Positions 5,852-63,092 of a stretch of DNA of 64,000 bases are shown here, in pieces. The notes under the pieces are model-generated. The model had not been told where the DNA came from. It worked only from the letters and a program-made list of their open reading frames with translations, and did no database searches. Positions within the stretch are counted from its first letter, which is position 1; the number at the start of each line of letters is the position of its first letter. The stretch covers positions 62,001 through 126,000 of the forward strand of contig JANQFH010000066.1 of assembly GCA_028277945.1 (NCBI GenBank), written 5' to 3'. Origin of the DNA: Oligoflexia bacterium (GTDB lineage Bacteria; Bdellovibrionota_G; JANQFH01). Both the position numbers and the translations under genes were made by a program.

Positions 5852-5896
5852 TGCTGTTAGGAGTGCTCTAACAAAAGATTGCAGCGAGGCAGCGGC

Positions 5897-9654: not shown

Positions 9655-9674
9655 ATGAGAGAAGGAACAAGACT

Positions 9675-10649
9675 ATGCAGATAGCAATGATAGGTCTAGG
9701 ACGTATGGGGATGAACATGTCACGACGACTTCTAGCAGCTGGTCATGAAGTCTTTGCCTTTGACCACGATCGTAGCAAAGCAGAAGAGCTCGTTAGCGCA
9801 GGCGCCGTTGTTGCAGATTCCCTTGAAGATTTAGTAGTAAAGGTTAACGCGCCAAAACATGTGTGGTTGATGGTACCGGCAGGTAAAGCCGTCGATTCCT
9901 TGGTAGAGAGTTTGGCAACACGGTTGGCAACCGATGACCTTATCGTGGATGGCGGTAACAGCCACTATAAAGATGCGCTTCGCCATGCAGAGCGATTGCA
10001 GCGTAAGCAGATACACTTTGTTGACGTGGGTGTCTCCGGCGGTATCTGGGGACTTAAAGAGGGCTACTGTCTTATGGCCGGTGGCAGGGAAGAGGCGTGT
10101 CGCCGATTAGAGCCGATCTTCCAGGCTTTGGCGCCCGAGGGTGGCTATCTCTACTGCGGGCCGGCAGGCGCAGGTCACTTTGTCAAGATGATCCACAACG
10201 GCATCGAGTACGCCATGATGGAGGCCTATGGTGAAGGGTTTGAAGTTATCCAGGCATCTCCCTATGGCCAACACGTTAACATGAGGCAACTTGCGCATCT
10301 ATGGAACCGTGGCAGCGTCATTCGCTCCTGGTTGTTAGAGCTGCTGCAGTCTGCCTTTGAAAAGGATCCCAATCTTGAAAGCATTGAAGGCTATATTGAA
10401 GACTCGGGTGAAGGTCGCTGGAGTGTGGCAGAAGCAATCGATAGTGGCGTACCTGCACTCGGCATAGCGCACGCGTTGTTTCGTCGTTTCCGTTCGCGGC
10501 AAGACAATCCCTTTGCCGAACGGGTGATTGCAGCGCTTCGTCGTGAGTTTGGCGGTCATGCGGTCGTTGGCAAAGGCGAGCATCGTCGTAAGAGTGAGGC
10601 AGGTGCTGGCGAGGTGCAAGCGGCTACCGCGGCCAAGGAGTTTAAGTAA
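9675..10649 (+). CDS. gnd: 6-phosphogluconate dehydrogenase, decarboxylating (short, NAD-type)
   Basis: A 324-residue dehydrogenase converting 6-phosphogluconate to ribulose 5-phosphate and CO2. The Rossmann motif MIGLGRMGMNMSRRL lies at the N-terminus, then DGGNSHYKD, DVGVSGGIWGLKEGYCLMAGG-type substrate segment and KMIHNGIEYAMM with the catalytic lysine. The length places it with the short bacterial class, often NAD-preferring, not the 470-residue NADP enzyme. It lies between pgi and zwf and is followed three bases later by zwf. Confidence 0.93.
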   Translation: MQIAMIGLGRMGMNMSRRLLAAGHEVFAFDHDRSKAEELVSAGAVVADSLEDLVVKVNAPKHVWLMVPAGKAVDSLVESLATRLATDDLIVDGGNSHYKDALRHAERLQRKQIHFVDVGVSGGIWGLKEGYCLMAGGREEACRRLEPIFQALAPEGGYLYCGPAGAGHFVKMIHNGIEYAMMEAYGEGFEVIQASPYGQHVNMRQLAHLWNRGSVIRSWLLELLQSAFEKDPNLESIEGYIEDSGEGRWSVAEAIDSGVPALGIAHALFRRFRSRQDNPFAERVIAALRREFGGHAVVGKGEHRRKSEAGAGEVQAATAAKEFK

Positions 10650-10652
10650 ACC

Positions 10653-12182: not shown

Positions 12183-13171
12183 AGCGGCGTTTGATTCTTG
12201 CCGGTGATGCCGGCGGAACTAAAACGAATTTGGCGGTCTACGCTTGTAAGGGAACATCTCGGCAGAAGGTTCGTGAGCAGCGGTTCAAGAGCAGTGACTA
12301 CCCTGGACTTGCCGAACTGCTGCAGGACTTTCTTAAACCAACACAAGAGCGGATCTCTGCGGCAGCCATTGCTATTGCCGGTGCCATTGTTGATGGCCAT
12401 GTGCAGACCCCAAACCTACCTTGGGAAGTTGAGCAGCAACGGCTGCAACGGGCTGTTGGTTTGACAAATCTGCAATTGATCAATGACCTTGAAGCAACGG
12501 CCTACGGCATACCTTGGCAGCCGGAAGATCAGTTTGCCATCCTAAATATCGGCAAGCAGCGTGCTGGCAATGCCGTATTGCTCGCTGCTGGCACCGGTCT
12601 TGGGCAGAGTCTGCTTTTTTTTAAAGATGGCGAGCTCTATCCCTCGCCCTCGGAAGGCGGACATAGCGACTTTGGCCCGACAAGTGAGATACAGCTCGAT
12701 CTTTGGCGGTTCTTACAAAATGAATTTGGTCACGTTAGCTATGAGCGTCTGCTCTCTGGGCCAGGACTCTACAACATCTACCGCTACCTGAAGACCAGCC
12801 AAGACTTCTCTGAGCCGTCGTGGTTTACGGAGCGTCTTGCCAAGGAAGATCCAGCCGCACTGATTGCGCAAACAGCACTGGAAAACAAGTTGCCGATCTG
12901 TGTGGAGGCGCTTGATCTCTTTGTTAGCATTTACGGAGCAGAGGCAGGCAACCTTGCACTTAAAGGCTTAGCTATAGGTGGTGTCTTTATTGGTGGCGGC
13001 ATTGCCCCCAAGATCCTACCCAAGCTGCAAGAGGGTGGCTTTATGCGCAGCTTTACGGCCAAGGGTAGGTATCGCGATCTACTGGCAGCCATGCCGGTCA
13101 AGGTGATCCTCAATCCCAAGACCGCGCTCGATGGTGCGGCACGCTACGGCCTTATGCATTCAGATTCTTAA
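12179..13171 (+). CDS. glk: Glucokinase
   Basis: A 330-residue ROK-unrelated bacterial glucokinase (Glk family) that phosphorylates glucose with ATP. Motifs are the phosphate loop AGDAGGTKTNLAVY, INDLEATAYGI, the AAGTGLGQSLL adenosine region and GGHSDFGP. I place the start at GTG 12179, which forms a GTGA overlap with zwf and begins directly at the family N-terminus; an upstream in-frame start at 12119 would bury 60 bases in zwf. The operon supplies glucose 6-phosphate to zwf or pgi. Confidence 0.9.
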   Translation: MKRRLILAGDAGGTKTNLAVYACKGTSRQKVREQRFKSSDYPGLAELLQDFLKPTQERISAAAIAIAGAIVDGHVQTPNLPWEVEQQRLQRAVGLTNLQLINDLEATAYGIPWQPEDQFAILNIGKQRAGNAVLLAAGTGLGQSLLFFKDGELYPSPSEGGHSDFGPTSEIQLDLWRFLQNEFGHVSYERLLSGPGLYNIYRYLKTSQDFSEPSWFTERLAKEDPAALIAQTALENKLPICVEALDLFVSIYGAEAGNLALKGLAIGGVFIGGGIAPKILPKLQEGGFMRSFTAKGRYRDLLAAMPVKVILNPKTALDGAARYGLMHSDS

Positions 13172-18919: not shown

Positions 18920-20266
18920 TTATTTCTGCAACTCTTTCATAATCTCGGAGTCTTCCTCTTCAAAGGCACTTAGCTGCCTGACATGCTCTTTAACAATGCT
19001 CGGTGTGATAAAGACGAGTAGCTCCTTTTTTGTCGTACCCCGACGCGTAGAGCCGAAGAGGGCGCCAAAGATGGGTATGCGATGCAGTACCGGCAGGCCT
19101 CGTTTGGTTTTGGTCTTTTGTAGCTGAAATAGGCCGCCGATAACCGTGGTTGCGCCGTTGTTTAAAAAAACCGTGGTAGCCGCGGTATTGTCAATGATAG
19201 AAGGTATCCCATCCACAGTATTGGCAAAGTCAGGTTGCGATTCGGTTACATCAATAGCGAGACTAATCTTGCCATCCACCGTCACCTGGGGTGTGACGAT
19301 CATGGTAATCCCCGCATCGATCTGCTGTAAATTGGAGGTACCGGTTGACGAGCCAGAGGAAGAGGCAGAGATGGTCAAATCGCCAGACGTTTTGACAAAG
19401 AATTTGACACCACTGTGGATGGTGGCTGGCTGGTTATTCACGGTGACAATGGATGGCCGCGACAGAATGGACAGATCGCCCTTTTCTTCGGCTAAAGAGA
19501 GCTGTGTATCAAACAGGGTATCGCCAAAGGGTCCGAGGCCGAGCGCAACTCCTGAAGTGGGGTTAGCACCACCTAAACCAGTGGCGCTGGTGTTGAGGTT
19601 AAGAGTCCTGCCACTGTCAGCCGCACCTACGGCGTTGAGACCAGCAACCTGAAACTCCCCGGCAGTGTCGGTAAAACCCCATTGCACGCCGAGACTGCGG
19701 ACATAGTCGACTGAGGCCTCAACAATCTTGGCCTCGATCAATACCTGTTTATCGAGCTTGTCGATGTTGGTGATAAGCGTCTGCACGTCTTGTAGGTAGG
19801 GCAGGGTATCCCGAACTGTAAGCGCATTGATACGATCGTCGATCATCACCGAACCGCGTTCAGAAACGAGAGCCTCTACCTGTCCGCCGACGTCTTTAGC
19901 CTTGGCATATTTTAAACGAAATGTTGTAGTCTCTAAATCTTCACCGAGCTCTTCTAAAGCCTCTTTTGTAGCAATGCGGATCACCTTGTTTTTGCTTACT
20001 GCACCTAAGCCGTGGGTTTCGAGAATGGCTTCCAAAGCATCCTGTAGGCTGATACTGTTAAAACTCGCTGTCACCAGACCTTCCATCTTGTCCGGCATCA
20101 CGACGTTCTGCCCATCTATCATCGTCAGCATGCGTACCACATGCTGGATCGGGGCATCTTGAATTTCGATTGTGTAACGTTTGTTTTGCTTAGTTTGGGT
20201 AAAACCTAACGTCGGCAATAGGCAGACAAGTATAGTCAACAGGTGCTGTCGTAAAAAGATAGGCAT
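18920..20266 (-). CDS. mshL: Secretin of the MSHA-type pilus (MshL/PilQ-like)
   Basis: A 448-residue outer-membrane secretin with a signal peptide (about residues 1-23). One STN-like or N0 segment (YTIEIQDAPIQHVVRMLTM) and an N1/N3 region (TTFRLKYAKAKDVGGQVEALV) precede the secretin core. That core contains EAKIVEASVDYVRSLGVQWG and the late LPVLHRIPIFGALFG signature. It is shorter than many PilQ proteins and has no AMIN domains, as in MshL. It forms the pore through which the pilus fibre exits. It abuts the PilP-like gene with no spacer. Confidence 0.88.
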   Translation of the reverse strand: MPIFLRQHLLTILVCLLPTLGFTQTKQNKRYTIEIQDAPIQHVVRMLTMIDGQNVVMPDKMEGLVTASFNSISLQDALEAILETHGLGAVSKNKVIRIATKEALEELGEDLETTTFRLKYAKAKDVGGQVEALVSERGSVMIDDRINALTVRDTLPYLQDVQTLITNIDKLDKQVLIEAKIVEASVDYVRSLGVQWGFTDTAGEFQVAGLNAVGAADSGRTLNLNTSATGLGGANPTSGVALGLGPFGDTLFDTQLSLAEEKGDLSILSRPSIVTVNNQPATIHSGVKFFVKTSGDLTISASSSGSSTGTSNLQQIDAGITMIVTPQVTVDGKISLAIDVTESQPDFANTVDGIPSIIDNTAATTVFLNNGATTVIGGLFQLQKTKTKRGLPVLHRIPIFGALFGSTRRGTTKKELLVFITPSIVKEHVRQLSAFEEEDSEIMKELQK

Positions 20267-20623
20267 CTATGACTTTCCTCCCTGCAGAGAAAGGCGAAAG
20301 ATGCCGTGCTCGTTTCTCAGAATGACCCCTTTTTTCTCAATGGAGACAAGTTCTGAAGAACCGATCTTGTCTCCCTGGCGTAAGACCTGACCGCTGATCA
20401 GGCAAGCTGCGTCCCCCTCCCTATAAACAATGGCCATCAGCTTCAACTCATGTACACTGACGTCATCGAGGTTCTGCACAAAAGGATTGTTTTGCCACTG
20501 AATTTTGTTACTGGGCTCCTTCTGAAAATCCTCGATATTGAGGCCCGACAGGGTATTAGCCCAAGCCACAGCCGTATAGCAGTAGCAAAAGATAAATAGC
20601 CAAATGCTCAACGCATACCGCAT
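20267..20623 (-). CDS. PilP/MshK-like pilus assembly protein
   Basis: A 118-residue protein with an N-terminal signal or anchor (residues 1-22). Its small beta domain has the pattern of PilP/GspC homology regions: NPFVQ, LMAIVYREGDAACLISGQVLRQGDKIG and a final VSIEKKGVILRNEHGIFRLSL. In type IV pilus systems such proteins link the inner-membrane PilNO-type complex to the secretin. The position directly before the secretin gene supports this. Sequence identity is too low to choose between PilP and MshK names. Confidence 0.7.
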   Translation of the reverse strand: MRYALSIWLFIFCYCYTAVAWANTLSGLNIEDFQKEPSNKIQWQNNPFVQNLDDVSVHELKLMAIVYREGDAACLISGQVLRQGDKIGSSELVSIEKKGVILRNEHGIFRLSLQGGKS

Positions 20624-20629
20624 GACAAC

Positions 20630-21190
20630 CTACTGCTGGCCATAAAATCGCCCTTGAATCTCAGCCGTGATACGACTGGAAGGGTCCGAATTTATGGAAA
20701 GGGTTTCAATGATTAGAGGTGCTGGCAGTGCTTCCAGCGTTTCAATATAGGCGCCAATGGCAGCAAAGCTTCCTGACAACGTCAGGTCCGCTTCCCTGTA
20801 AATAAGGCTGCCCTCCTCTCTTAAATCAGCAAATTTGCTCTTAATGATTTTGACTCCTCGAAGTTGTAGTGGCTGAGTCAGAAAGTGGACAGCGTCAACC
20901 ACATCTTGTCGCGAGCCAAACCGTTTGCTATTTATGGTTGCCTTCTCCACCAGGTCACTCTGCATGGCTGGGCTCGCCTCTGCCGTGTTTGGCGCTGCTA
21001 TTAACTGCCGACGTTCTTCACTAGTGGATTCAAGCTGCTGTCTTATTGATGAGATAGCATGGTGACTTGCTAATAGGCATGACCTGACAAAGCCCAAACA
21101 GAGTGCGGCGAGCAGCAAGATAAAGATAGTCCTCTCGCGTCTGTTTGGCTTTTGATTTAAATCGATTTTTGCAAAAGACTTGATATTCAT
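20630..21190 (-). CDS. PilO/MshJ-like inner-membrane pilus assembly protein
   Basis: A 186-residue bitopic protein: short cytoplasmic tail with basic residues, one transmembrane helix (about residues 22-42), a coiled-coil stretch (SSIRQQLESTSEERRQL) and a periplasmic ferredoxin-like domain. This is the PilO/GspM plan. I set the start at ATG 21190, which makes an ATGA overlap with the PilN-like gene; a TTG at 21199 is less likely. It would pair with the PilN-like protein as part of the alignment complex. Confidence 0.75.
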   Translation of the reverse strand: MNIKSFAKIDLNQKPNRRERTIFILLLAALCLGFVRSCLLASHHAISSIRQQLESTSEERRQLIAAPNTAEASPAMQSDLVEKATINSKRFGSRQDVVDAVHFLTQPLQLRGVKIIKSKFADLREEGSLIYREADLTLSGSFAAIGAYIETLEALPAPLIIETLSINSDPSSRITAEIQGRFYGQQ

Positions 21191-21711
21191 CGCATCCAAC
21201 AGGTTAACTGAAAAGCCAATCGTCCCGGTGTTCCCGCATCTTTTAATTGTTGTGAAGAGATCTGAGCAATCTTATCACAGATAGGTAGACTGATTAAACG
21301 GCTCTTGAACTGAGTAACCACTTGCAGGTTTAAGGCCACACCTTCGACAATCAACTTGCGGTCGTCCGTGATCGAGCCTTCTACTCGGTTCAGCTTTACC
21401 TCTTGGGGGGTATTTTTTGATATGTCGTCCAAGAGACCTGCCCAGGCAATAGCATTGTCCAGGTAGTGACGCGTTGTTTCTATTGCGGCCGGAGTGGTCG
21501 AAGCTGTGGCAGGTGAACTCTTTAATTGGGAAATTTCGCCTTGGAGAGCAAAAAGCTGGTTGGCAAGGCCCTGCAGTCTATGTTTCTGTACAAAGGCAAA
21601 GGTAAGAAAGAGCAAGATCAGGCCGGTGGGGATCAACAGCGTCCAAAGGTAGTTGAGCTCGAAATTTCTTAGATCAAAGGCCTTTCTCTCTAAAAAGTTG
21701 ATGTGTTGCAT
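21187..21711 (-). CDS. PilN-like inner-membrane pilus assembly protein
   Basis: A 174-residue bitopic protein beginning MQHINFLERK, the PilN-type N-terminus that binds PilM. A transmembrane helix follows at about 21-41, then a coiled coil and a periplasmic domain. The start at 21711 is chosen for that N-terminal motif; an in-frame upstream ATG at 21786 would add 25 residues read from the pilM gene. Together with the PilM-, PilO- and PilP-like products it forms the inner-membrane platform link. Confidence 0.78.
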   Translation of the reverse strand: MQHINFLERKAFDLRNFELNYLWTLLIPTGLILLFLTFAFVQKHRLQGLANQLFALQGEISQLKSSPATASTTPAAIETTRHYLDNAIAWAGLLDDISKNTPQEVKLNRVEGSITDDRKLIVEGVALNLQVVTQFKSRLISLPICDKIAQISSQQLKDAGTPGRLAFQLTCWMR

Positions 21712-21721
21712 AGCCAATCCA

Positions 21722-22738
21722 TCAGTCCAGCGCCAGTCCCGCTGCCACTCCATAACAGTGCCTTTTCTCGGCAATCTCGTCTTCATAGAAGCTGGCGGTA
21801 TCTATCTTGTTAAACGGTTCTAGCATTGCCGTGGGAACGTTCAGGGTCTGTTGTACATGGGATGCTAGGCCGAAAAGCTGCGAACCTCCGCCTGTGAGGA
21901 AAAGATGAGTGATAGGTTGATTTGGGAATAGCATAAGATAGGTGTCCATCGAACGTTGGATTTCGACGAGCAGCTTGGAGAGGTAGTGCGCTATGGTGTT
22001 CTGCAATGTCTGATTTTTGTCCTCAGGGATCTTTTCTTTTGCCGTTTCAACTTTATACTGCTCTGCTCTCTGTTGATCGATGCCAAGATCGCGCATGATT
22101 TGCTGGGTCAGTGTTTCACCCGCCATGCCGATCATAGGCCTGCAGAACAGTAGTCCCTCTGAACAAACGGTGGCGAAGAGCGTGAAGGTCTTGCCGAAGT
22201 CAATCAAGGCATGCCGATCATTTGGCTCTAGGTCATAATTATACAGCACGTTGTAAGCCAGTGCGTGAATCTGTGGTTCCACCATCCTTGGATCCGCAAG
22301 TCCCAGCTCCTTTAAGTACGCAAGCTGTTCTTGCACCCTTTGCCTTGGTAAGGCAAAGACAAGATAAGGCATGGTCTTTTCACTGGGTAGCGACGAAAGT
22401 GGCAAATAACGAAATAGGTAGCCATCAATCTGATCTGGCCCACCTTGAATCACGTCCTTTAGACTCCAAGGGACGATCTCACGGAGCTCTTCTTCAGGCA
22501 CCCGGGGTAGGTCCACCTTGCGGATTTTCATGTTGGGATCATCGATGCTAACCCGAACCTCTCCACGACGCAGAATGGGGTGACGAAACAACTCTCTTAA
22601 ACCGCGTCGATTATCTCGTTTGAAAAAGGCATGGGCTACAAGGTGGTAGCGACTCGTGTTGTTCTTTAGGCAGATGACTTTAACATGCTCACTGCCTACA
22701 TCGATACCCACGGTCTCGTTTGTTTTTTTAACCATCAT
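21722..22738 (-). CDS. PilM/MshI-like actin-fold ATPase
   Basis: A 338-residue cytoplasmic protein of the PilM family with the FtsA/actin-like fold. Visible phosphate and adenosine loops are GIDVGSEHVKVICL at the N-terminus, ALIDFGKTFTLFATV in the middle and LFLTGGGSQLFGLASHV near the end. PilM binds the PilN N-terminus on the cytoplasmic side. The ATG overlaps the TPR gene stop (ATGA). In Vibrio MshI combines related roles; here PilM- and PilN-like functions are separate genes. Confidence 0.83.
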   Translation of the reverse strand: MMVKKTNETVGIDVGSEHVKVICLKNNTSRYHLVAHAFFKRDNRRGLRELFRHPILRRGEVRVSIDDPNMKIRKVDLPRVPEEELREIVPWSLKDVIQGGPDQIDGYLFRYLPLSSLPSEKTMPYLVFALPRQRVQEQLAYLKELGLADPRMVEPQIHALAYNVLYNYDLEPNDRHALIDFGKTFTLFATVCSEGLLFCRPMIGMAGETLTQQIMRDLGIDQQRAEQYKVETAKEKIPEDKNQTLQNTIAHYLSKLLVEIQRSMDTYLMLFPNQPITHLFLTGGGSQLFGLASHVQQTLNVPTAMLEPFNKIDTASFYEDEIAEKRHCYGVAAGLALD

Positions 22739-23487
22739 CTGAGTTTTTGCAGATGCTGTTTAATTTGCAGAGCCAGCTGCGAATTGTCGTTATCAGAGCG
22801 TTTTAAAAACGCTTGATAGTGGTTCACGGCGCTGCCAAGGTCGCCATTCTTTTCGTACAAGACAGCGAGGTTAAAATAGGGGTCGGCATAGTCCTTTTTT
22901 AAAGAGAGGGCTTTTTTGAGATATGTCTCTGCCTCTATGGTTTCGCCCGTCACCGTTTTCAAATAACCCAGATTGTTAAAACATTCAGCGCAGTTGCCAT
23001 CTAGTTCCAAGGCACGGCTGAAGTGCTTTTCGCTGCTGCTAAAGAGCTCTTTGCGTAGGAAGACAAGACCGAGGTCGTTGTGGATGGTCGCACTATCTGG
23101 GTTTTGTTCTAGGGCCTGTTGGTACAGTTTCAGGCTGGCATCGAGCTGCCCGTTTTCAAACAGGTTTTTAGCCTGCTCTAAGTCGACAGATGGGTTGGTT
23201 GGCAGTGGGACGGCCACAGAGGGCAAGCGGGCCTGTGGTGGTGCGGTTTTTGGCTTGCTGCTCATTTCAGCAACCTGCTCTGTTTGCCAGCGGTTCCAAA
23301 CCCAGAGAGTTGTGGTAGCAGCGGCCATCGCCAGCAATAGGGCTGACAGTAGCCACAGTCTCTTTGTAGAGCTTGCGTTCTTTTTTAAAAAACCGCTTTT
23401 GCCAAGAAAAAGCCCCTCATGGGCCGTGGTCTCTTCGGCTCTTTGTTCTTCTTGTTGGGAGCGCAGAGCTTTTAAAATGACGGACAT
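22735..23487 (-). CDS. TPR protein of the pilus locus (MshN-like)
   Basis: A 250-residue protein that begins MSVILKALRSQQEE, a motif shared with GspB/ExeB and MshN-type proteins. A transmembrane helix follows at about residues 43-65, then a Pro-rich linker and about four tetratricopeptide repeats. The start at ATG 23487 is supported by GGAGG eight bases upstream. The partner of such proteins is the GspA/MshM-type ATPase, whose gene overlaps this one by 16 bases just upstream. It probably helps secretin or peptidoglycan-linked assembly. Confidence 0.8.
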   Translation of the reverse strand: MSVILKALRSQQEEQRAEETTAHEGLFLGKSGFLKKNASSTKRLWLLSALLLAMAAATTTLWVWNRWQTEQVAEMSSKPKTAPPQARLPSVAVPLPTNPSVDLEQAKNLFENGQLDASLKLYQQALEQNPDSATIHNDLGLVFLRKELFSSSEKHFSRALELDGNCAECFNNLGYLKTVTGETIEAETYLKKALSLKKDYADPYFNLAVLYEKNGDLGSAVNHYQAFLKRSDNDNSQLALQIKQHLQKLR

Positions 23488-24320
23488 GACCAAAACCTCC
23501 ACCAAGGTCTAGGAATCGTCCCGCGCAGATCGGTGATCGCCTCCTGTACGACCTCTTTGGTAATGGTCCGCGTCCTCCTGGCATAGGCAGCGAGCAAGAC
23601 CCGATCACACAGGATATTAGCCACACGGGGATAACCACGCGAAAAATCACATACCCTTTTTACAGCCCGCCTCTCAAAAAACAGCCTTCCTTCTCCGCCT
23701 GCTATGGAGAGGCGATGAAAAATATACTGGCGCATCTCTCTGGCATTAAGTGTGCGCAACCGTTGGTGGATACTAATGCGTTGGGCAAGTTGACGCAGAC
23801 GGCGATCCTTGAGAGTTGTCTCTAATTCAGGTTGTCCCACTAAAACAATCTGTACCAGTTTATGTTTGTCGGTTTCCAGGTTGGACAGGAGGCGTGTCAT
23901 TTCTAAAGCCTCTACTGAGAGGTTCTGTGCCTCATCAATGAGGACCACAGCATTGTGGCCATTCTTTGATCGAGACAGAAGAAACCGATTTAGGGCTTCT
24001 AACTGCTCTTCGGCGGTTCCCGCAATTCTTCTATTATCAAAATCTTTATTAATAGCCTGGAGCAGTCCCGTGACTGAAAGCAGGGGGTTTAGGATGACCG
24101 AGATTTCGATATTGGCATGGAGGCGGTTGATCACCTCACGGCACACGGTCGTCTTGCCGGTGCCAATCTCACCAGTCAACAAGAGAAAACCGCGGCGTTG
24201 CTCTATGCCATAGACTAAAGCGGCAATGGCTGCTTCATGTTGATGCGAATGAAAGAGGAAGCGGGGATCGGGCGTCATGCTGAAGGGTTCTTCCTTCAGG
24301 TTGAAGTAGCGCAGATACAC
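23472..24320 (-). CDS. mshM: MshM/ExeA-like AAA ATPase
   Basis: A 282-residue AAA ATPase of the ExeA/GspA family that starts YLRYFNLKEEPFSMTPDPRF, the family hallmark. Walker A is GEIGTGKT at residues 50-57 and Walker B is VVLIDEAQNL with D129-E130. There is no periplasmic peptidoglycan-binding domain, as in MshM. GTG start at 24320 with AGGAGGGG ahead of it. It probably works with the overlapping TPR protein in assembly of the secretin through the cell wall. Confidence 0.87.
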   Translation of the reverse strand: MYLRYFNLKEEPFSMTPDPRFLFHSHQHEAAIAALVYGIEQRRGFLLLTGEIGTGKTTVCREVINRLHANIEISVILNPLLSVTGLLQAINKDFDNRRIAGTAEEQLEALNRFLLSRSKNGHNAVVLIDEAQNLSVEALEMTRLLSNLETDKHKLVQIVLVGQPELETTLKDRRLRQLAQRISIHQRLRTLNAREMRQYIFHRLSIAGGEGRLFFERRAVKRVCDFSRGYPRVANILCDRVLLAAYARRTRTITKEVVQEAITDLRGTIPRPWWRFWSCPSF

Positions 24321-24388
24321 GGACGTCCCCTCCTAATCACATAAAACATAACCCAATTCTATCCATTAGAAAAGAGCCAGCATCTCTC

Positions 24389-26269
24389 TCAGCCATCCGG
24401 CGGCGTAAAGCTAGGAGTGGTCTTGGTGGAGCCGTCCAACATGGTGAAGGTGATATCAAAGGTCTTACCACTCATGTCACCGTTAAAGCGGAAGAAGTTG
24501 ATGGTTTTGGTCTGCGAGGGCGACAGCGAGACGGGCGCTGTCAGGGTTTTGGTCTTGTTCTTTTTTGCCGTACCGCTCCAAACCTGGCTGCGATTGACAT
24601 TGATGTTTTTTACTCGGCGACTGCTGGAGCCGTTCCAGTTGACACTGAACTTCTCCCAGGTAATGGTGCTGGCGCCGTTGTTGGTAATGGTTATACCTTC
24701 TAAGTCTATATCGCCACTTCCGCTAATTGTTGTGCTTGATGTATCGATAGACAGATCACTCGCCTGTGCATCTAGGGTAACGGTTCCTGTCTTGGTGTTA
24801 CCATCAGACAGATCAAAGGTTATTGTGTAAGTTATACCGACGTCGACGGCTTTCTTGAATTGAAAGGTAGTGATATCCACGGCACCGACGCCGTCGCGCA
24901 GGTAGACATCTTTGTCGCCAAAGTCTGCCTTTTGGCCTGAGTTTTTGTTGCCACTGAAGTTGTTGTCATCGGTATCGTCTTGGACTTTGAGCTTTTTAAA
25001 CTGCTGCCCTGAGACGCCGCCGCTCCAGCTGACAGTAACCGCGGTAAGGCCGATGTCATTAGCGCAGGTGTTTTCCAGCGTCATATTTTGCAGATACTTG
25101 TTGTCGCTGCCACCACGGGCAGCATTGGAGGTATCAAAGGTAAGGCAGTTGTGTTGATTACTGGCGAACTGGTCGATGCTGGTTGTCTTACTGGTCGCAT
25201 CGACAAAGGTCCAGATAATCGTGTAATCACGGTTAAGCATCTCATCGCTAAAGTCAAAGCGGTTGTTGGAACTATAGGTTGTCGACGCTGGAATGGTGGT
25301 GTCGATATCTCGAGTTATCCCGCTGTTGGTATTATCCCAAGAGTCGTAAATGTTGCTGTTGTTGATCCTGAACTGTTGCAGGGTGCGGCTTGGCGAAGTC
25401 GGTGTCCAGCTTACCTGGGTGGTGTCGAGCCGAATCGGTAAGGAGCAACTATTTTGATAGGTCAAATCCTGCAGACGTTGCCACTTGCTGCTGTTCCACG
25501 CCAACTTGGCCGCGGAGGTGGTGGCTGTAAAACAGTTAGCCTGGTTGTCGGCAAGAAAGTCAACAGCAACGCTCTTTTGTGAGCCGTCGTTCATGTGAAA
25601 GACAAGCGTAAAGTCTGTATTGGTTACGTTGGTGTCCCAGCGAATGTGGCTTAGGTCGTGGTTGTTGCCGTCGTTGATCACGTAGTCATTGGCGCCAAAA
25701 TCAAAATTGGTGCCTGAGCTCTGTGCCGGACCATCGTACTCCTTAGGGTTTGTGGCAATTTGGATCTGATTGGCCTGTTGTCCCCCGTTAGGCGTCCAGC
25801 TGATCGTCATGGAGTCAATCTGGATGGCAGCGGTGCAGCGTACGGATCGGCTTAACACCAAGCCAGTCAACTTGGTGTTACCAGTGATGGCCTTGCCTGT
25901 GGTGTCGACATTCAGGCAGTTACCCGCGGCGGGCGGATTGGGATCCGTGATGCTAAAGGAATTGCTGGCACTATCCTTTGTTGTGGTGACGTTGACCTTG
26001 CTGTTCGTGCGCGTGATGCTGAAAGCCTCTCCAGCAAAGTGACGTGTGGGAATAGGGTCGGGATTGCCATCGACCTGAATTTGGCGCATGGCGTATTCAA
26101 AAGCCCCATGGGCAGCATAATACGCCTGGTCCATGTAGAGCTGCTGTGTGCGGGTTGATTGGTTGGTAGCTACCAACACGGCCATACCAGTTGCCATGGC
26201 TGCAAGAATACCCATGGCAATGAGCACACCTAATACGGCAAAGCCGCTACGGTGATGCATAGGCTGCAT
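24389..26269 (-). CDS. MshP/PilX-like minor pilin with four tandem beta-rich repeats
   Basis: A 626-residue protein with a prepilin-like N-terminus (MHHRSGFAVLGVLIAMGIL; glycine at the cleavage site but no Glu at position 5) and the YYAAHGAFEYA region seen in MshP/PilX-type proteins. From about residue 116 it is built of four tandem units of about 128 residues (116-243, 244-372, 373-502, 503-626). Each has VSW-type and FDLSDG-type strands. Units 1-3 each have two cysteines (C118/C145, C246/C275, C375/C402), probably disulfides; unit 4 has none. The size and repeats suggest an exposed pilus-tip or adhesive subunit, comparable in place to MshQ. The start could be residue 1 or M4. Confidence 0.75.
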   Translation of the reverse strand: MQPMHHRSGFAVLGVLIAMGILAAMATGMAVLVATNQSTRTQQLYMDQAYYAAHGAFEYAMRQIQVDGNPDPIPTRHFAGEAFSITRTNSKVNVTTTKDSASNSFSITDPNPPAAGNCLNVDTTGKAITGNTKLTGLVLSRSVRCTAAIQIDSMTISWTPNGGQQANQIQIATNPKEYDGPAQSSGTNFDFGANDYVINDGNNHDLSHIRWDTNVTNTDFTLVFHMNDGSQKSVAVDFLADNQANCFTATTSAAKLAWNSSKWQRLQDLTYQNSCSLPIRLDTTQVSWTPTSPSRTLQQFRINNSNIYDSWDNTNSGITRDIDTTIPASTTYSSNNRFDFSDEMLNRDYTIIWTFVDATSKTTSIDQFASNQHNCLTFDTSNAARGGSDNKYLQNMTLENTCANDIGLTAVTVSWSGGVSGQQFKKLKVQDDTDDNNFSGNKNSGQKADFGDKDVYLRDGVGAVDITTFQFKKAVDVGITYTITFDLSDGNTKTGTVTLDAQASDLSIDTSSTTISGSGDIDLEGITITNNGASTITWEKFSVNWNGSSSRRVKNINVNRSQVWSGTAKKNKTKTLTAPVSLSPSQTKTINFFRFNGDMSGKTFDITFTMLDGSTKTTPSFTPPDG

Positions 26270-26753
26270 AGTTATTCCCCGTGTTCCTTAAGAACGTGCG
26301 TGTTCTCAGCGTCAGAGTGCCATGGTCTCCGGGCACATCCATGCCTAGTTGGATGCCGACACTGCGGACTGCAGAGGCTGTTGCCGTGGTATTGCCCTGT
26401 TCATTATAGTAGCTGAAGCTCAGACTGGTCACGTTACTGGCAAGCGTGTCCGTATTGCGTCTTAGGTTGGTGCTGTTGAGGTCATAGGTGATGGCTGTGC
26501 CATCTGGATATTCAAATTGAAAGCTGGTTGATGTACTGACGTTGACCACATCCGCCGAAGACTGGATTAGGCGGATTTCGCGCACCATGCGGTCCATGGC
26601 TGCTCTCGCTTGTGCCAGTGTCTGCTTTCGCGACCAGACCGTATCAAAACCCTTGATGGCACTACTGAGGCCTGGACCCAAAACAGCGCCTAAAATACCG
26701 AGCAGGGCAATGACCAAAACCAATTCAACCAGGGTAAAACCTTTCTGTTTCAT
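26247..26753 (-). CDS. Prepilin-like protein (MshO/PilW position)
   Basis: A 168-residue pilin-like protein with leader MKQKG, then FTLVELVLVIALLGILG with Glu5, a type III prepilin N-terminus cut by a prepilin peptidase not encoded here. After the alpha-helix comes a beta-rich body without cysteines. The start overlaps the preceding pilin stop (ATGA) and the end overlaps the repeat pilin start by 14 to 23 bases. By locus position it corresponds to MshO, a minor pilin of the initiation complex. Confidence 0.82.
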   Translation of the reverse strand: MKQKGFTLVELVLVIALLGILGAVLGPGLSSAIKGFDTVWSRKQTLAQARAAMDRMVREIRLIQSSADVVNVSTSTSFQFEYPDGTAITYDLNSTNLRRNTDTLASNVTSLSFSYYNEQGNTTATASAVRSVGIQLGMDVPGDHGTLTLRTRTFLRNTGNNYAAYASP

Positions 26754-27202
26754 GGCGTGTAGTCTGTAATCAGGGTGGCCAATTGGATAGATCTATTGCC
26801 GTTGTTCCAACTCACCTGAACGGTCACGCGTGCGTATCCAGAACCGGCTGAGGCGTCTAAAAAATCATCGCTGTTATCATCGTCATCAGGATTGACTTCA
26901 AGGGCGGTTGAGTCGAGAACAAAACCAGCAAAACCGCTAACGGGGTTTTCATCATAGGTATTGCTCGTGTTGATTGAAGTGAGCGTAGCCGCATAACCAC
27001 AGCCGGATTCGTTGCAGTCTCTCTGGGCAATAATCCGTTCCATGGTTTCGCGTGCTATATTGGTAGCGATCACCGTCTGATCGGCCACGAGCGAAGAATT
27101 TACCGAGCCTTGAAAGGCGTAGAGCATGCCTACCAGACCAACGCCAATAACAGCAATGGACAGGACTGCTTCAATCAACGTGAAGCCCTCTATAGCCTTC
27201 AT
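26750..27202 (-). CDS. Prepilin-like protein (MshD/PilV-like)
   Basis: A 150-residue minor pilin with leader MKAIEG followed by FTLIEAVLSIAVIGVGLVG, which has Glu5 and the PilV-like pattern of a glycine-rich helix. It then has IARETMERIIAQRDCNESGCG, with two cysteines close together. It overlaps its neighbours by four bases on both sides. By position and N-terminus it matches MshD or PilV minor pilins. Confidence 0.82.
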   Translation of the reverse strand: MKAIEGFTLIEAVLSIAVIGVGLVGMLYAFQGSVNSSLVADQTVIATNIARETMERIIAQRDCNESGCGYAATLTSINTSNTYDENPVSGFAGFVLDSTALEVNPDDDDNSDDFLDASAGSGYARVTVQVSWNNGNRSIQLATLITDYTP

Positions 27203-27741
27203 TGGATGGCCACCATGCCGGTATTGGCGGTAACTGCGATCACCTTGCTATTGGTGCCATCGCTGATGGTCACACTGCCCCCACCTCCCGTGGTAGGAGT
27301 GCCCATGCTGTTGAATTCGACGGTATAGTTGCTGGAAATGACGATGTTAGGATACTTGTTGGCAAGGGTGATCACCATATTCTGTTTATCCAGAGGGCTT
27401 GTTAGAGGCGTTGCCGTGCTGCCCTGATAGACGGTATAGGAGCCGCCACTGATAAACTGTACACCAGAAGTCTGACCCGTCATCATGGCATTCTGTTTGG
27501 CGAATTCGATATCTGATTGTACCTGCTTGCTCGCGGTATCCAGCCGCGCTGAAGTAATAGGAGGTGAAAAGAGGACCACCGCCCCAGCTAGAAGACCTAG
27601 GAGGGCAATGACCAGGATGAGCTCGACAATGGTAAAACCAACTCGATTATCCGCAGTTCGTTGCCTGAATAAAGGTGCCCGCTGAGTTGCTGTACTGGAA
27701 CTCTGTGTCGCCGCTGCCGTTATCAAGTACCCCGTCCCCAT
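27199..27741 (-). CDS. Prepilin-like protein (MshC position) with buried start
   Basis: A type IV pilin-like protein with cleavage motif VGFTIVELILVIALLG and a Gly-rich C-terminal half (PTTGGGGSVTISDG). No usual short leader exists. The preceding pilin stop (27647-27649) lies almost on the cleavage site, and the nearest in-frame ATGs are at 27741, 27750 and 27765, inside that gene, giving leaders of 35 or more residues. I list 27741, but none of the starts has a good ribosome-binding site. Either a long leader is used, an unusual start codon is used, or a small deletion or sequencing error removed the normal start. Gene order places it as MshC. Confidence 0.65.
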   Translation of the reverse strand: MGTGYLITAAATQSSSTATQRAPLFRQRTADNRVGFTIVELILVIALLGLLAGAVVLFSPPITSARLDTASKQVQSDIEFAKQNAMMTGQTSGVQFISGGSYTVYQGSTATPLTSPLDKQNMVITLANKYPNIVISSNYTVEFNSMGTPTTGGGGSVTISDGTNSKVIAVTANTGMVAIQ

Positions 27742-28114
27742 CAACGTCATACGCGTAGCAATCGTCATCAATCTTGAACCACTGCGCATTCACACCATTT
27801 TGTAGAACCTGATTGAAGAGAAGATTGGTGTTGCTTGCAGCAGTACCGTCAGCCAAATCCGATGTCTCCAACAGACTTGGATAGCTTTCGGCGCTTCCAG
27901 AGGCGATCTGATTGGCTGCATAGAGCGACAACCCCGACTGTACCGCGCCAACGGTGGCATTCATGGAATTTGTGCGTGCGTTTGTCAAAGAGATGCCAAA
28001 GAAAGTGGGCAGAGCTGCGACGGCGAGTACACCTAACAGAGCAATAACAAGGACAAGTTCAATCAGCGTAAAACCCTTGCACTGTCGACACTTGCTTTGT
28101 CTTATGGTAACCAT
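27647..28114 (-). CDS. Probable major pilin (MshA-like)
   Basis: A 155-residue prepilin with a 14-residue leader ending in CKG, then FTLIELVLVIALLGVLAV with Glu5. The body ends in a loop bounded by two cysteines (in DDCYAYD and ATNCG) that holds DVDGDGVLDNGSGD, a calcium-loop-like acidic motif. The Cys-bounded C-terminal D-region is typical of type IV pilins. Its place straight after the MshF-like gene and before the other minor pilins suggests the major or MshA/MshB subunit. The stop runs into the next pilin. Confidence 0.82.
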   Translation of the reverse strand: MVTIRQSKCRQCKGFTLIELVLVIALLGVLAVAALPTFFGISLTNARTNSMNATVGAVQSGLSLYAANQIASGSAESYPSLLETSDLADGTAASNTNLLFNQVLQNGVNAQWFKIDDDCYAYDVDGDGVLDNGSGDTEFQYSNSAGTFIQATNCG

Positions 28115-28129
28115 TGCCTCCTCCTTTCG

Positions 28130-28474
28130 TTACCAAGATCCATACCCTTTTGTCGTTGAGTGTAACCATCCTGATTTCGGATCGTAGACATAGGGATTGC
28201 CAAAGGGATCTACGGGCTTGCCTGAAGCATCACGCTGCATACTCCAATTAGGGCTATGAACAGCGTGTTTGGTATCGAGTGCTGTGGCTAGATCAGCAGG
28301 CCACTTTTTCTGCATGCGTAGATAGAGCTGCACCGCAATTCTTAACTGTTTTAACTCAAAAATCAGCGCCTGTTCTCTTTCGGCCCTTTGGGCAAGGTGC
28401 CTATTAATAATGGCAGCTACTGTGGCAACGATCACGACACTGATGATAATGATATACCAATGTTTGCGCTGCAT
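28130..28474 (-). CDS. Small membrane-anchored pilin-like protein (MshF position)
   Basis: A 114-residue protein with one N-terminal transmembrane helix (about residues 7-26) and a coiled region QRAEREQALIFELKQLRIAV. The C-terminal motif DPFGNPYVYDPKSGW resembles the end of GspG-type pseudopilins. It lacks the Gly/Phe prepilin cleavage site, so it is probably a membrane protein rather than a processed pilin. It lies between MshG- and MshA-like genes, exactly where mshF is found in Vibrio. Confidence 0.7.
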   Translation of the reverse strand: MQRKHWYIIIISVVIVATVAAIINRHLAQRAEREQALIFELKQLRIAVQLYLRMQKKWPADLATALDTKHAVHSPNWSMQRDASGKPVDPFGNPYVYDPKSGWLHSTTKGYGSW

Positions 28475-28478
28475 CTGT

Positions 28479-29690
28479 CTATCCTGGAAGCACCACCTTG
28501 GACAGATTCCACACTGGGAGGTAAACTGCCAAGGCCACTAAGGTAATGAGACCAAATACTAAAAATAATAGTAGCGGCTCTATAAGGGTTGTCAAATTCT
28601 TCAAGATATCGTCGATCTCCTCATCGTAGAAGAGTGCAGTAGATTCGAGTAACTCATCTAGTTTTCCAGTCTGCTCCCCTACAGCACAGGTTTCTTGCAT
28701 CATGGGTGTAAAATAACTCGCCTGTGACATGCCTTGTGAGAGTGAGCCTCCTTCCTCGAGATCTTTTTTGAGCGATCGCAGCTCATCCGCGTAGCCGAGG
28801 TTTGTCATGGTATCTGCCACAACCCCAAGGGAATGCGAGAGTGGCAGCCCAGCACGGTAGAGTGCTGCTACCAAATGGCCAAAACGGGCATTGGCAACCA
28901 ATAGATTGAAGTTACCAAAGACCGGCAAACGAAAAGTAACCTGACTCAACCAACGTTTTCCAGCGCTGCTGTTTGTCAGCCGTTTCCAGAAAACTACCGA
29001 GACAAAAAAGAAAAAGAGCGGAAGATACCAATAGGTGGTAAACACTTTGCTCAACCCCAAGAGTATCTGTGTAGGTAGAGGAAGTGCCGTATCGTGCTGG
29101 CCATAGAAGTTCTCAAATGCCGGAATGACAAAGACGAGCATAAGGCAGACCACAATCAGCAACGCTCCAATAACCAGCTTTGGGTATAGTGTTGCAGATT
29201 TGACCTTACTGTGAATTTGATGTTCCTTCTGCAGAACAGTAGCGGCCTCTTTTAGCGTCTTATCCAAAACCCCACCTCTCTCGCCTGCTTCTAGCATACT
29301 TGTATACAGGGTACTGAAATATTGCGGGTGTCTGCCAAAAGCCTGCGCCAAGCGCATTCCACCAGCCACATCCTTATGAATAGTCGACAGAGCTTCCTTA
29401 AGATTGTGATGATGCGTTTGTTTCACTAGCGTCGCCAAGATCCGATCCATGGGGGTACCGGCCTTAAACATCACCTGGAACTGACGGGTAAGGTTGGCGA
29501 GATCTTTAGGCTTTATTTTTTTTTGCAGAAGGGTTTTTAAGGAAAACTCAAATCCCTTAGGCTGTACGGATACAGGGAGGAGACCTCTAATGGCCAAGGC
29601 CTGTTTCACACCTGTTGGGTGTGTGCCTTCTACCTCTCCCGTAATAAGAGCACCCTGAGCATCTCGTGCCCGGTAAACAAATGTAGACAT
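28479..29690 (-). CDS. mshG: Pilus inner-membrane platform protein (MshG/PilC/GspF-like)
   Basis: A 403-residue inner-membrane protein with two T2SSF domains (about residues 68-190 and 270-392) and three transmembrane helices. Motifs include FRQ-type and LEAGERGGVLDKTL in the first domain and VGEQTGKLDELL in the second. It is the platform on which the pilin is extruded by the MshE-type ATPase, whose gene lies four bases upstream. Confidence 0.92.
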   Translation of the reverse strand: MSTFVYRARDAQGALITGEVEGTHPTGVKQALAIRGLLPVSVQPKGFEFSLKTLLQKKIKPKDLANLTRQFQVMFKAGTPMDRILATLVKQTHHHNLKEALSTIHKDVAGGMRLAQAFGRHPQYFSTLYTSMLEAGERGGVLDKTLKEAATVLQKEHQIHSKVKSATLYPKLVIGALLIVVCLMLVFVIPAFENFYGQHDTALPLPTQILLGLSKVFTTYWYLPLFFFFVSVVFWKRLTNSSAGKRWLSQVTFRLPVFGNFNLLVANARFGHLVAALYRAGLPLSHSLGVVADTMTNLGYADELRSLKKDLEEGGSLSQGMSQASYFTPMMQETCAVGEQTGKLDELLESTALFYDEEIDDILKNLTTLIEPLLLFLVFGLITLVALAVYLPVWNLSKVVLPG

Positions 29691-29693
29691 GGC

Positions 29694-31394
29694 TTAACCT
29701 TCTACAGTCACTTTGAGAACTTCTTCTATCGTGGTCAATCCCTGTCGGATCTTTTCTATGCCGTCTTCGAAGATGGTATGAAACCCTGCGGCAGTTGCCT
29801 TTTCTTTCAGTCGAACTTCCGGAGAGCTGTTGTTGATTAAGACGCGGAGTTCATCATCAATTCGTACCAATTCAAAGAGAGCAATGCGGCCTTTGTAACC
29901 GCGCATACCACACTCACGACAACCCTTTCCTCGAAAGGCTTGCAGGCCTTCAGCCTTAGAGCTTAGCCTATGCAAAGCCTCTGCTGGTAGCGGGGCCTCT
30001 ACTCGACACGTTGGGCAGATACGGCGCACCAGCCGTTGTGCCATCACTCCTAAGAGGGTTGAGGATATGAGGTAGGGTTCTATGCCTAAGTCAACAAGGC
30101 GGGCAACAGCACCGATGGCAGTATTGGTGTGCAGCGTCGATAACACCAGATGTCCTGTCATAGCGGCGCGCAACGAGATATCGGCGGTCTCTTGATCGCG
30201 GATCTCACCTACCATGATAATGTCTGGATCTTGACGGAGCATGGCGCGCAGTGCCGTGGGAAAGGTTAACCCGGCTTTGGGATTGATCTGGGTTTGATCC
30301 ACTCCGGCGATTTCGTTTTCAATGGGATCTTCAACCGAGAGCACATGATGTTTTTGACGATCGATCTCTTGGAGGGCAGCATACAAGGTGGTCGTCTTTC
30401 CAGAACCGGTAGGGCCGGTAACCAGAAGAATCCCATGTGGCTTATGGACGAGCTCGGTAAAAGTGTGCAAATCTCTCTCTACAAAACCGAGATCCTCTAG
30501 GGTTATTAAACTCTGTTTAGAGAGTAGCCGTATGGCTGCAGCTTCACCAAACATGGTTGGGTAGGTGGCAATACGCAGGTCTAGTTCTCTACTGTCTATT
30601 TTGAGCCTTACGCGTCCATCTTGGGGAATACGGTGTTCGGCAACATCCATACCTCCAAGAATTTTCAGGCGTGACAGCATTCCTTGATGCAGAGGTTTGG
30701 GTTGCGATTGGATTTCCTCTAAGACGCCATCGATTCTGAGGCGTATTTTCAGGGCATCGCGAGTCGGTCCAAAATGGATGTCGCTGGCTCGTTCACGAAA
30801 GGCCTGTGCCAGTACTTGATCGACGGTATTGACAACCCTTGAGGCTTGCGCCTCTCTTTCTAGCTGGTCTTCAGTCGACTCTTCTTCTACGTTGGCGGAA
30901 GTCTCGTAGCCGACCACTTCCACCGCTGTAGCCGAGTTGTCCTCTTTCTGCCTGTCGCCATAGTGTTGCTCGATGGCATTGTCGATCTCTTCTCGTGAAG
31001 CCAAAACAAAGTCGATCTCTTTGTCCAACTCCATTCTGGCACCATCAAGAACTGTTAGATCAAAGGGATCGGCCGTGGCCACGGTTAGCTTCTCCTCAGT
31101 TTCAAAAAGGGGAAAGAGACTCCATTGACGGGCCTTTTCAACCGGTATGAGCTTCAATACGGTGGTATCGGGTTGGTAGGTAGCGAGCGAGATCACGGCA
31201 ATACCCGCCTTTTCAGCGAGCCTAGTATTGAGCTCCTCTTTGGATAGAAACCGGCGTTGGACTAAAATATCATCTAGGTTACCGCCAAGATTTTTCTGTG
31301 ACTCCAAGGCGACGGCTAACTGATCAGCCGTTAGCACCCCTTCGTCCACCAACTCCTGGGCTATGGTCTCTATCTTTTGCGCACGAACGGTCAT
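29694..31394 (-). CDS. mshE: Pilus assembly ATPase (MshE/PilB/GspE-like)
   Basis: A 566-residue secretion ATPase. N-terminal MshEN-like domain (about 5-145), linker, then the motor: Walker A GPTGSGKT at 327-334, Asp-rich EDPIE at 355-359, Walker B region DIIMVGEIRD at 391-400, His-box LHTN, and a zinc tetracysteine C460, C463, C492, C495. The c-di-GMP binding motif of MshEN normally begins Arg-Leu-Gly twice; here those positions read IETIAQ and NLDD, so binding may be lost or weakened. It is the first gene of the pilus locus; no PilT-like retraction ATPase is present. Confidence 0.93.
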   Translation of the reverse strand: MTVRAQKIETIAQELVDEGVLTADQLAVALESQKNLGGNLDDILVQRRFLSKEELNTRLAEKAGIAVISLATYQPDTTVLKLIPVEKARQWSLFPLFETEEKLTVATADPFDLTVLDGARMELDKEIDFVLASREEIDNAIEQHYGDRQKEDNSATAVEVVGYETSANVEEESTEDQLEREAQASRVVNTVDQVLAQAFRERASDIHFGPTRDALKIRLRIDGVLEEIQSQPKPLHQGMLSRLKILGGMDVAEHRIPQDGRVRLKIDSRELDLRIATYPTMFGEAAAIRLLSKQSLITLEDLGFVERDLHTFTELVHKPHGILLVTGPTGSGKTTTLYAALQEIDRQKHHVLSVEDPIENEIAGVDQTQINPKAGLTFPTALRAMLRQDPDIIMVGEIRDQETADISLRAAMTGHLVLSTLHTNTAIGAVARLVDLGIEPYLISSTLLGVMAQRLVRRICPTCRVEAPLPAEALHRLSSKAEGLQAFRGKGCRECGMRGYKGRIALFELVRIDDELRVLINNSSPEVRLKEKATAAGFHTIFEDGIEKIRQGLTTIEEVLKVTVEG

Positions 31395-60421: not shown

Positions 60422-61003
60422 ATGGGACAAAAAGTTTTTCGTAGTGGCATTCGCAGAGAAACCGGCTGGCTCTATTACCTCGACAAGAGAGGTAACATCT
60501 CGCGCACAAAAATGGCCCGAGGTGGTCGGAGTGGTCGCTCAAGTTCGCAAACCGTGGTAACCGCTCACGTGGATAGAGAGCCAGGGTTTCTTTACTATAT
60601 CGATTCAGATGGTGACATCTCGCGGGTGAAGATGAAGCGTGGTGGTACCAAGAAGAGAAAAACTAGCAAACGTAAAGCTGCAAAACGGAAGACCACCAAA
60701 AGAAAAGCCAAGAAGAAAAAGACGACAAAAAAGAAAACAGCTAAACGTCGAACACCCAAACGCAAAACAGCTAAGAGGAAAACGACCAAGCGGCGTACCA
60801 CCAAGAAAAGAGTAACCAAGCGCAAAGCCAAGCGTAGAACGACGAAGCGCAAGCCTACCAAGCGGCGTAAGACAACCAAGAAACGCAAGACCACCAAACG
60901 CAAAACCACAAAAAAACGCAGTACCAAGAGAAAAACAACCAAAGGTAAAGCCAAACGCAAGACTGCGAAGCGCAAAACCACGAAGCGTCGCAAAAGACGT
61001 TAG
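60422..61003 (+). CDS. Lysine-rich histone H1-like protein with duplicated N-terminal module
   Basis: A 193-residue, extremely basic protein. Residues 1-77 hold two copies of a module of about 40 residues with the pattern RETGWLYYLDKRGNISRTKM and REPGFLYYIDSDGDISRVKM, each followed by a basic-Gly-Gly stretch. From about 78 to the end the chain is almost only Lys, Arg and Thr in KRKTTKR-type repeats, like eukaryotic H1 tails and bacterial AlgP/HctB proteins. It probably binds and compacts DNA. The N-terminal module is unknown to me. Own promoter and strong terminator make it a monocistronic gene. Confidence 0.8.
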   Translation: MGQKVFRSGIRRETGWLYYLDKRGNISRTKMARGGRSGRSSSQTVVTAHVDREPGFLYYIDSDGDISRVKMKRGGTKKRKTSKRKAAKRKTTKRKAKKKKTTKKKTAKRRTPKRKTAKRKTTKRRTTKKRVTKRKAKRRTTKRKPTKRRKTTKKRKTTKRKTTKKRSTKRKTTKGKAKRKTAKRKTTKRRKRR

Positions 61004-61076: not shown

Positions 61077-62072
<996 letters not shown>

Positions 62073-63092
62073 TTACTTTTTAACCTCAAAAGCTGCGAGC
62101 CGTTCAAGCAGCTCGACCACACGACAGGCATAACCCCAGCCATTGTCAAACCAGGTTAAGGTCTTTAGCAGGTTGCCATGCAAAACCCGCGTAGACAGGC
62201 CATCAAAGATAGCCGAGTGGGTGTTGCCAATGACATCACTGGAGACAATGGGATCTTCTACGTATTGGATGATATTTTTAAACTGTCGACTGCCAGCAGC
62301 AGACTGTATCAAGCTATTGATCTGTGCCGCTGTAACCTCGGTTTCCATCTCGCTAACGAGATCAACAATCGAGCCATCGGGTATGGGCACGTTCATGGCG
62401 ATGCCTTGTAGACGTCCTTGCAGTTGCGGCAACACACGCGCCAATACCTGTGGTGCAGAGGTTGGGGCTGGAATGATATTCTCAGCTGCTGACCGCGAGC
62501 TGCGATAATCTGCGTGCGGCACATCGGCGAGACGTTGGGCATTGGTATAGGCGTGCACTGTGGTCATGGCGGCACGCCTAACCCCATAAGCCTCGTGCAA
62601 CAGTTTCAAAATAGGCGCGAGGCAGTTGATGGTCACCGAGCCGTTGGAGACGACGCGTGTCTTAGCAGAGAGCAGCTCGTTGTTTACACCCATGACTACG
62701 ATGTCGATGTTTTCTCCCTCTTGCGGTGGTACGGTGAGGACAACCCGCTTGGCGCCCATCTGTAGGTGTTGCTCTAATAGTTTTCGGCTGCGGTACTTGG
62801 TGGTGGCCTCAATAACAAAGTCAGCACCCAAATCCTTCCAGTCTACGTCCCCGGGCGCGGCACCGTTCACCAGATGGATTTCACTGCCAGCCACATAGAG
62901 ACGGTCTTGTTTGAGCTCGACCTTGTCTGGGAAGGGGCCGTGTACCGTATCCCAGCGTAACAGGTACTCAATCGTCTTGAACGGCGCAATGTCGCTGATG
63001 GCCGTGACTTGGAGGTCCTTGCGTTCGTGCAAAATACGAAAGATGTTGCGGCCAATGCGACCAAAACCCATGAGCCCAATGTTTATTGACAC
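62073..63092 (-). CDS. GAPDH paralog lacking the catalytic cysteine
   Basis: A 339-residue GAPDH-family protein upstream of gap. The fold is well kept: [60 protein letters not shown] (His 180). But the active-site SCTTNC reads SVTINC (V153 in place of Cys) and the C-terminal DNEWGY reads DNGWGY. The codon is GTG against TGC, more than one base change. It should not oxidise glyceraldehyde 3-phosphate by the thiohemiacetal route. I start at GTG 63092, with TAGG upstream; an in-frame TTG at 63110 is weaker. A structural, regulatory or otherwise adapted role is likely. Confidence 0.85.
   Translation of the reverse strand: MSINIGLMGFGRIGRNIFRILHERKDLQVTAISDIAPFKTIEYLLRWDTVHGPFPDKVELKQDRLYVAGSEIHLVNGAAPGDVDWKDLGADFVIEATTKYRSRKLLEQHLQMGAKRVVLTVPPQEGENIDIVVMGVNNELLSAKTRVVSNGSVTINCLAPILKLLHEAYGVRRAAMTTVHAYTNAQRLADVPHADYRSSRSAAENIIPAPTSAPQVLARVLPQLQGRLQGIAMNVPIPDGSIVDLVSEMETEVTAAQINSLIQSAAGSRQFKNIIQYVEDPIVSSDVIGNTHSAIFDGLSTRVLHGNLLKTLTWFDNGWGYACRVVELLERLAAFEVKK

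Follow-up and report, generated by a model that had tools for sequence, protein, structure and literature searches.

A probable catalytically dead GAPDH subunit encoded directly upstream of an active gap gene in at least five bacterial phyla

The window analysed here, a stretch of 64,000 nucleotides from an Oligoflexia bacterium (contig JANQFH010000066.1), carries two type I glyceraldehyde-3-phosphate dehydrogenase (GAPDH) genes in tandem on its minus strand. The upstream member, which we call pseudo-GAPDH, occupies 62073..63092 (−) and encodes 339 aa from a GTG start; the downstream member, a canonical gap at 61077..62069 (−), encodes 330 aa with Cys149, His176, Arg231 and Glu314 all present. 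Both Pfam GAPDH domains (Gp_dh_N and Gp_dh_C) are found in each protein. The pseudo-GAPDH stop codon (62075-62073) and the gap ATG (62069-62067) are separated by exactly 3 nt (62070..62072, −), in agreement with the three-base coupling to an intact gap reported in a preliminary description of this DNA. The pair forms an isolated bicistron: the gene before it, for a DAO-type oxidoreductase, is divergent, and the ORF after it is convergent. The two GAPDH genes are the only ones of type I in the genome (2.86 Mb, 95.6% complete), and the downstream gap is the sole catalytically complete one.

Elsewhere in the window, a short (F/W)LYYIDxDGxISRxKMxRGG motif occurs twice in a 193-aa ORF with no Pfam match (60422-61003, +); after the two copies comes a long histone-H1-like tail rich in Lys, Arg and Thr, with KTTKRK repeats. 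A sugar-phosphate series at 5879-13171 (+) comprises transketolase, a 577-aa protein whose PGI domain is confined to its first half, 6-phosphogluconate dehydrogenase, glucose-6-phosphate dehydrogenase and glucokinase. A type II secretion/pilus-type cluster with a secretin and a T2SSE ATPase (18920-31394, −) encloses a 626-aa ORF (24389-26269) that has no Pfam match.

We numbered residues as in B. stearothermophilus GAPDH by motif alignment and took residue roles from earlier work (PMC9287727, PMC5119734). The active-site stretch of the window pseudo-GAPDH reads VVSNGSVTINCLA, where canonical gap reads SNASCTTNC, and base-for-base inspection of the ORF found a GTG (Val) codon at 62634..62636 (−) in the position of the catalytic Cys149. 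GTG differs from the Cys codons TGT and TGC by three base changes. The earlier judgement that a sequencing error is unlikely was borne out by these three substitutions, by a second genome of the same phylum (G002) that carries the same tandem with Ile in place of Val and WYDNGWAY as its signature, and by dozens of paired relatives in other phyla. As also described previously, the active-site His176 (62553..62555, −) is retained, within MTTVHAYT, and NEWGY has become NGWGY: a GGC (Gly) codon at 62139..62141 (−) replaces Glu314, giving WFDNGWGY where the canonical gap has WYDNEWGY. Further losses comprise Arg231→Asn (AAC, 62391..62393, −), Arg195→Ser, Gly209→Ser and Thr151→Ile; in active type I GAPDHs, Arg195 and Arg231 are the arginines of the Ps site, which binds the substrate phosphate (PMC9287727). 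The NAD-binding residues (GxGxxGR, Asp32, Asn313 and Tyr317) are all conserved in the window copy and nearly all across its clade, with changes in the surroundings of the adenine pocket (Asn31 and a nearby Thr-Gly). At the sequence level, catalytic inactivity of the pseudo-GAPDH is strongly supported.

None of the curated NCBIfam models fits this protein. Against GAPDH-I (TIGR01534) it scores 345.0 bits, under the curated cut-off of 367.2, compared with 433.0 for the downstream gap, and it falls below the cut-offs for GapB (PRK07729; 349.6 vs 546), erythrose-4-phosphate dehydrogenase (Epd/E4PD, TIGR01532; 296.4 vs 530.6) and ArsJ-associated GAPDH (NF033735; 297.5 vs 450). An AlphaFold monomer model (pLDDT 90.8) nonetheless predicts a GAPDH fold, with B. 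stearothermophilus GAPDH C149A as its best PDB match (TM 0.92, Foldseek). Residues 186-192 and 194-203, mainly around the S-loop, fall below pLDDT 50. A single-chain AlphaFold model of the pair (A2), with the in-frame TAA read through, reached pLDDT 56 and pTM 0.44 on a shallow alignment of 11 sequences.

The paired architecture — an upstream paralogue with the NGW signature, then a canonical gap directly downstream — recurs well beyond the window. A one-genome-per-species scan yielded 80 loci, with the pair in all but a few that are cut by contig ends, and it is present in Acidobacteriota, Acidimicrobiia/Actinomarinales, Neomarinimicrobiota, Fibrobacterota and the window's own phylum (at least five phyla). 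We also searched by a degenerate 24-base pattern that encodes W(F/Y)DNGW(G/A)Y and is blind to the catalytic residue and to neighbouring genes. In a broad sample of 385 genomes it hit two, both of the window's phylum; group by group it hit 23/297 genomes of Acidobacteriota, 51/247 of the class of Actinomarinales, 4/120 of Neomarinimicrobiota and 2/5 of the window's phylum. At all 57 signature loci from the last three of these searches, some of which repeat the first locus set, a catalytically complete gap follows the pseudo-GAPDH immediately, and the pseudo-GAPDH has lost Arg231 (57/57). The 11 genomes searched whole (that of the window and ten others) each contain exactly two GAPDH-I genes, namely the pair; the pseudo-GAPDH gene is absent from many relatives in these lineages. 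At one Actinomarina locus (L107, 4259-5267), the pseudo-copy is broken into two ORFs that overlap in different frames, owing to either a frameshift or an assembly error; its partner is intact.

Tallies over 49 non-redundant pseudo-GAPDH members define what the clade has lost and kept. Glu314 is Gly in 49/49, an invariant signature, and the Arg231 position is Asn (35), Thr (10), Cys (2) or otherwise Ser or Asp, with Arg in none. Thr151, Gly209 and Arg195 are variable. His176 is retained in 48/49 members, Ser148 in all and Thr150 and Thr208 in most, as are the NAD residues Gly7, Gly9, Arg10, Asp32, Asn313 and Tyr317. Position 149 may be N, S, C, V, I, A, F or G among orthologues next to gap, a variability that rules out Val149, prominent in the preliminary description, as a conserved hallmark. 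Orthologues with Cys149, which that description had named as evidence against its reading, do exist and make up about one third of the family; because they too are without Arg231 and Glu314, we regard loss of Cys149 as a secondary event and disfavour these proteins as active enzymes. Within the family, the active site is most degraded in a Holophagales-type clade (L078-L081, L084, L085, L087-L090, L094, L099, L110), where position 149 is Phe and position 176 is Arg (VRAY). Acidobacterial pseudo-GAPDHs (L119-L124) combine SNASC or SNTSC and the His with Asn or Cys at Arg231 and WYDNGWGY, and appear to be intermediates on the way to a fully dead site.

Every tree grouped the pseudo-copies in one clade (UFBoot 100, SH-aLRT 99, 100% of bootstrap trees). 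Their branch is long in trees with ordinary GAPDHs, and the single clade was also recovered in a tree without long branches. Parsimony assigned one change to Glu314→Gly, one to the loss of Arg231 and at least nine to the loss of Cys149, indicating that Arg231 and Glu314 were lost first and the nucleophile later and repeatedly. Median dN/dS was 0.12 for pseudo-copies versus 0.07 for their canonical partners, and median identity between lineages was 43% versus 63%. Distances within the two families were correlated across 39 non-redundant pairs (r = 0.92), as expected for joint inheritance of the pair, although shared species history contributes too.

Gene order within the pair is tight. Of 73 measurable loci, 56 overlap by 1-8 nt, mostly as the 4-nt ATGA, and 16 are spaced by 0-20 nt, so that 72/73 overlap or lie within 20 nt. 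Gene pairs that overlap or lie this close encode subunits of heteromeric complexes more often than expected, with a 4.5-fold enrichment in E. coli (PMC10666635). Beyond the pair, neighbours differ by lineage, including PFK (L034), PPi-PFK and aldolase (L062), DNase IV (L112) and, in Acidimicrobiia, the F420 genes CofG/CofH; the pair itself is therefore the conserved unit, and we dropped wider genomic context as a clue to function. At five Acidimicrobiia/Actinomarinales loci (L035, L044, L061, L066, L092), the gap pair stands divergent beside F420-precursor genes, with NCBIfam confirming CofG in L035 and CofH in L066 and the other three alike by sequence.

We then asked how conservation is distributed over the subunit interfaces, using P, Q and R ranges from a solved GAPDH (PMC5119734) transferred by alignment offset. 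Interface columns of the pseudo-subunit are more conserved than the remainder (1.32 vs 1.75 bits), and only 2/331 circular shifts gave a value as low. The signal is driven by the R interface, formed by the S-loop (6/331 shifts; 62478..62549, −, in the window), and by the Q interface (9/331 shifts), with P-interface strands no more conserved than average. Conservation of the S-loop core (mean entropy 0.39 vs 0.52) and of the DPIVSSD segment (0.38 vs 0.80) is stronger in the pseudo-subunit than in its active counterpart. In other GAPDHs the S-loop contacts the neighbour's coenzyme across the R-axis (PMC3728087). S-loop position 185 is small (Ala/Ser) in both partners and Leu in unpaired GAPDHs; shared S-loop residues could, however, be inherited from the ancestor before duplication. 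We likewise set aside the paired-only residues Tyr43, Leu187 and Ala/Ser188 (canonical numbering) as proof of co-evolution, since common ancestry also explains them.

On balance we think it reasonably probable that the pseudo-GAPDH is a catalytically dead GAPDH subunit, probably still able to bind NAD, that is produced at a constant ratio to its active partner and joined to it in a prozyme-like heterotetramer. The suggestion of a pseudoenzyme partner thus survives as the best reading, through the cross-phylum clade, tight coupling, purifying selection and conserved interfaces, without Val149 as its hallmark. Consistent with a prozyme-like arrangement, catalytic residues were lost under purifying selection and the gene co-occurs obligately with an active paralogue. 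A single ancient duplication would have given rise to the upstream copy, which probably lost glyceraldehyde-3-phosphate processing together with Arg231 and Glu314, a step strongly supported by sequence; sequence and structural model show that the fold of GAPDH, its NAD motif and His176 persist in the dead copy, as do the regions of tetramer contact. Judging from the gene layout, the pseudo-subunit would be translated just ahead of the active subunit, usually through coupling and in a fixed ratio. We infer hetero-assembly of the two chains, most likely into a heterotetramer in which dead subunits, probably NAD(H)-bound, would give their S-loops to the coenzyme sites of active subunits and, in the manner of prozymes, may determine how active, cooperative or stable those subunits are. 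Against this heterotetramer we count the merely average conservation of the P-interface strands, the many relatives in these lineages that do without the gene, and the absence of overlap in the window, where the 3-nt gap departs from most relatives. A homotetramer of pseudo-subunits also fits the gene overlaps and the conserved interfaces.

Such a homo-oligomer, co-expressed with gap, might act outside the GAPDH tetramer, either as a sensor that binds NAD(H) or phosphate or as a moonlighting regulator. The largely kept NAD motif, Asp32, Asn313, His176, Ser148, Thr150 and Thr208 suggest a ligand pocket without a nucleophile, a homotetramer would need the conserved interfaces too, and TbGAPDHL, a predicted inactive GAPDH-like flagellar protein, has been proposed to retain its cofactor site (PMC4106842). 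Yet the gene was always found beside gap and is nearly always coupled to it, neither of which a free-standing sensor would need, and the genes flanking the pair are not conserved; we consider this explanation unlikely. Somewhat less likely still is a dehydrogenase of altered chemistry or other substrate specificity that requires neither Cys149 nor Arg231. Strong conservation of Gly314, His176 and the NAD motif, and the Cys149 of roughly one third of members, would suit such an enzyme. We disfavour this second proposal of the preliminary description because no nucleophile or other catalytic group is conserved at position 149; Thr151, Arg195 and Gly209 also vary, and the Holophagales-type clade has replaced the His by Arg. 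It is improbable that the pseudo-subunit only helps canonical GAPDH to fold or assemble, as a chaperone that does not stay in the mature tetramer: the upstream, coupled gene order and the low-confidence S-loop of the monomer model would accord with this role, but the NAD site and pocket residues would then need no retention. That the gene is a recently decaying duplicate, a pseudogene or an assembly or sequencing artefact is hardly credible, since its faster evolution relative to its partner is outweighed by intact ORFs and conserved motifs in five phyla, a dN/dS near 0.12, the three codon substitutions and the presence of the pair in an independent genome of the same phylum.

Few enzymes have been studied as much as GAPDH, whose bacterial form is treated as a homotetramer. 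To our knowledge, a GAPDH built from working and non-working subunits is not known in bacteria, and our search of the open-licence PMC literature found no published description of a bacterial GAPDH pseudoenzyme pair. The pseudo-GAPDH shares both Pfam domains, the fold, the NAD motif and His176 with homotetrameric type I phosphorylating GAPDH (GapA; TIGR01534), and the window copy differs from it in lacking Cys149, Arg231, Glu314, Gly209 and Thr151. Chloroplast A2B2 GAPDH (GapA/GapB) is a heterotetramer, as we propose for the bacterial pair, but its GapB is catalytically competent and carries a CP12-like C-terminal extension, whereas the tail of the bacterial pseudo-subunit is only short and variable and its site is dead. 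B. subtilis GapB and Epd are likewise second GAPDH-type paralogues in bacteria; they are active enzymes with Cys, and the window copy lies far under their NCBIfam cut-offs. Further parallels are trypanosomatid prozymes of deoxyhypusine synthase (PMC3663545) and AdoMetDC (PMC5201418), in which a dead and an active paralogue form a heteromer with a proposed activating or regulatory role. Those are eukaryotic polyamine enzymes with demonstrated complexes, whereas the GAPDH pair is bacterial and glycolytic, translationally coupled by layout and putatively heteromeric. T. brucei flagellar GAPDHL resembles the pseudo-GAPDH as a predicted inactive homologue with a possibly retained cofactor site (PMC4106842), but it is reported as an independent eukaryotic protein, poorly conserved among species, and forms no operon with an active gap.

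More tentatively, and with slightly less than even confidence, we suggest that the sole glycolytic GAPDH of several phyla is an obligate heterotetramer with NAD(H)-binding regulatory pseudo-subunits, of single ancient origin and with dead sites left to drift freely. If the heteromeric reading is true, GAPDH would be a heteromer in these lineages of five or more phyla, the abundant marine Actinomarinales among them, and would offer a natural system in which to study the control that dead subunits exert on a model cooperative enzyme. The family would also carry a warning for annotation, as many genes labelled 'GAPDH' cannot be GAPDHs. Finally, the repeated losses of Cys149 that followed a single loss of Arg231 and Glu314 outline a stepwise route from enzyme to pseudoenzyme.
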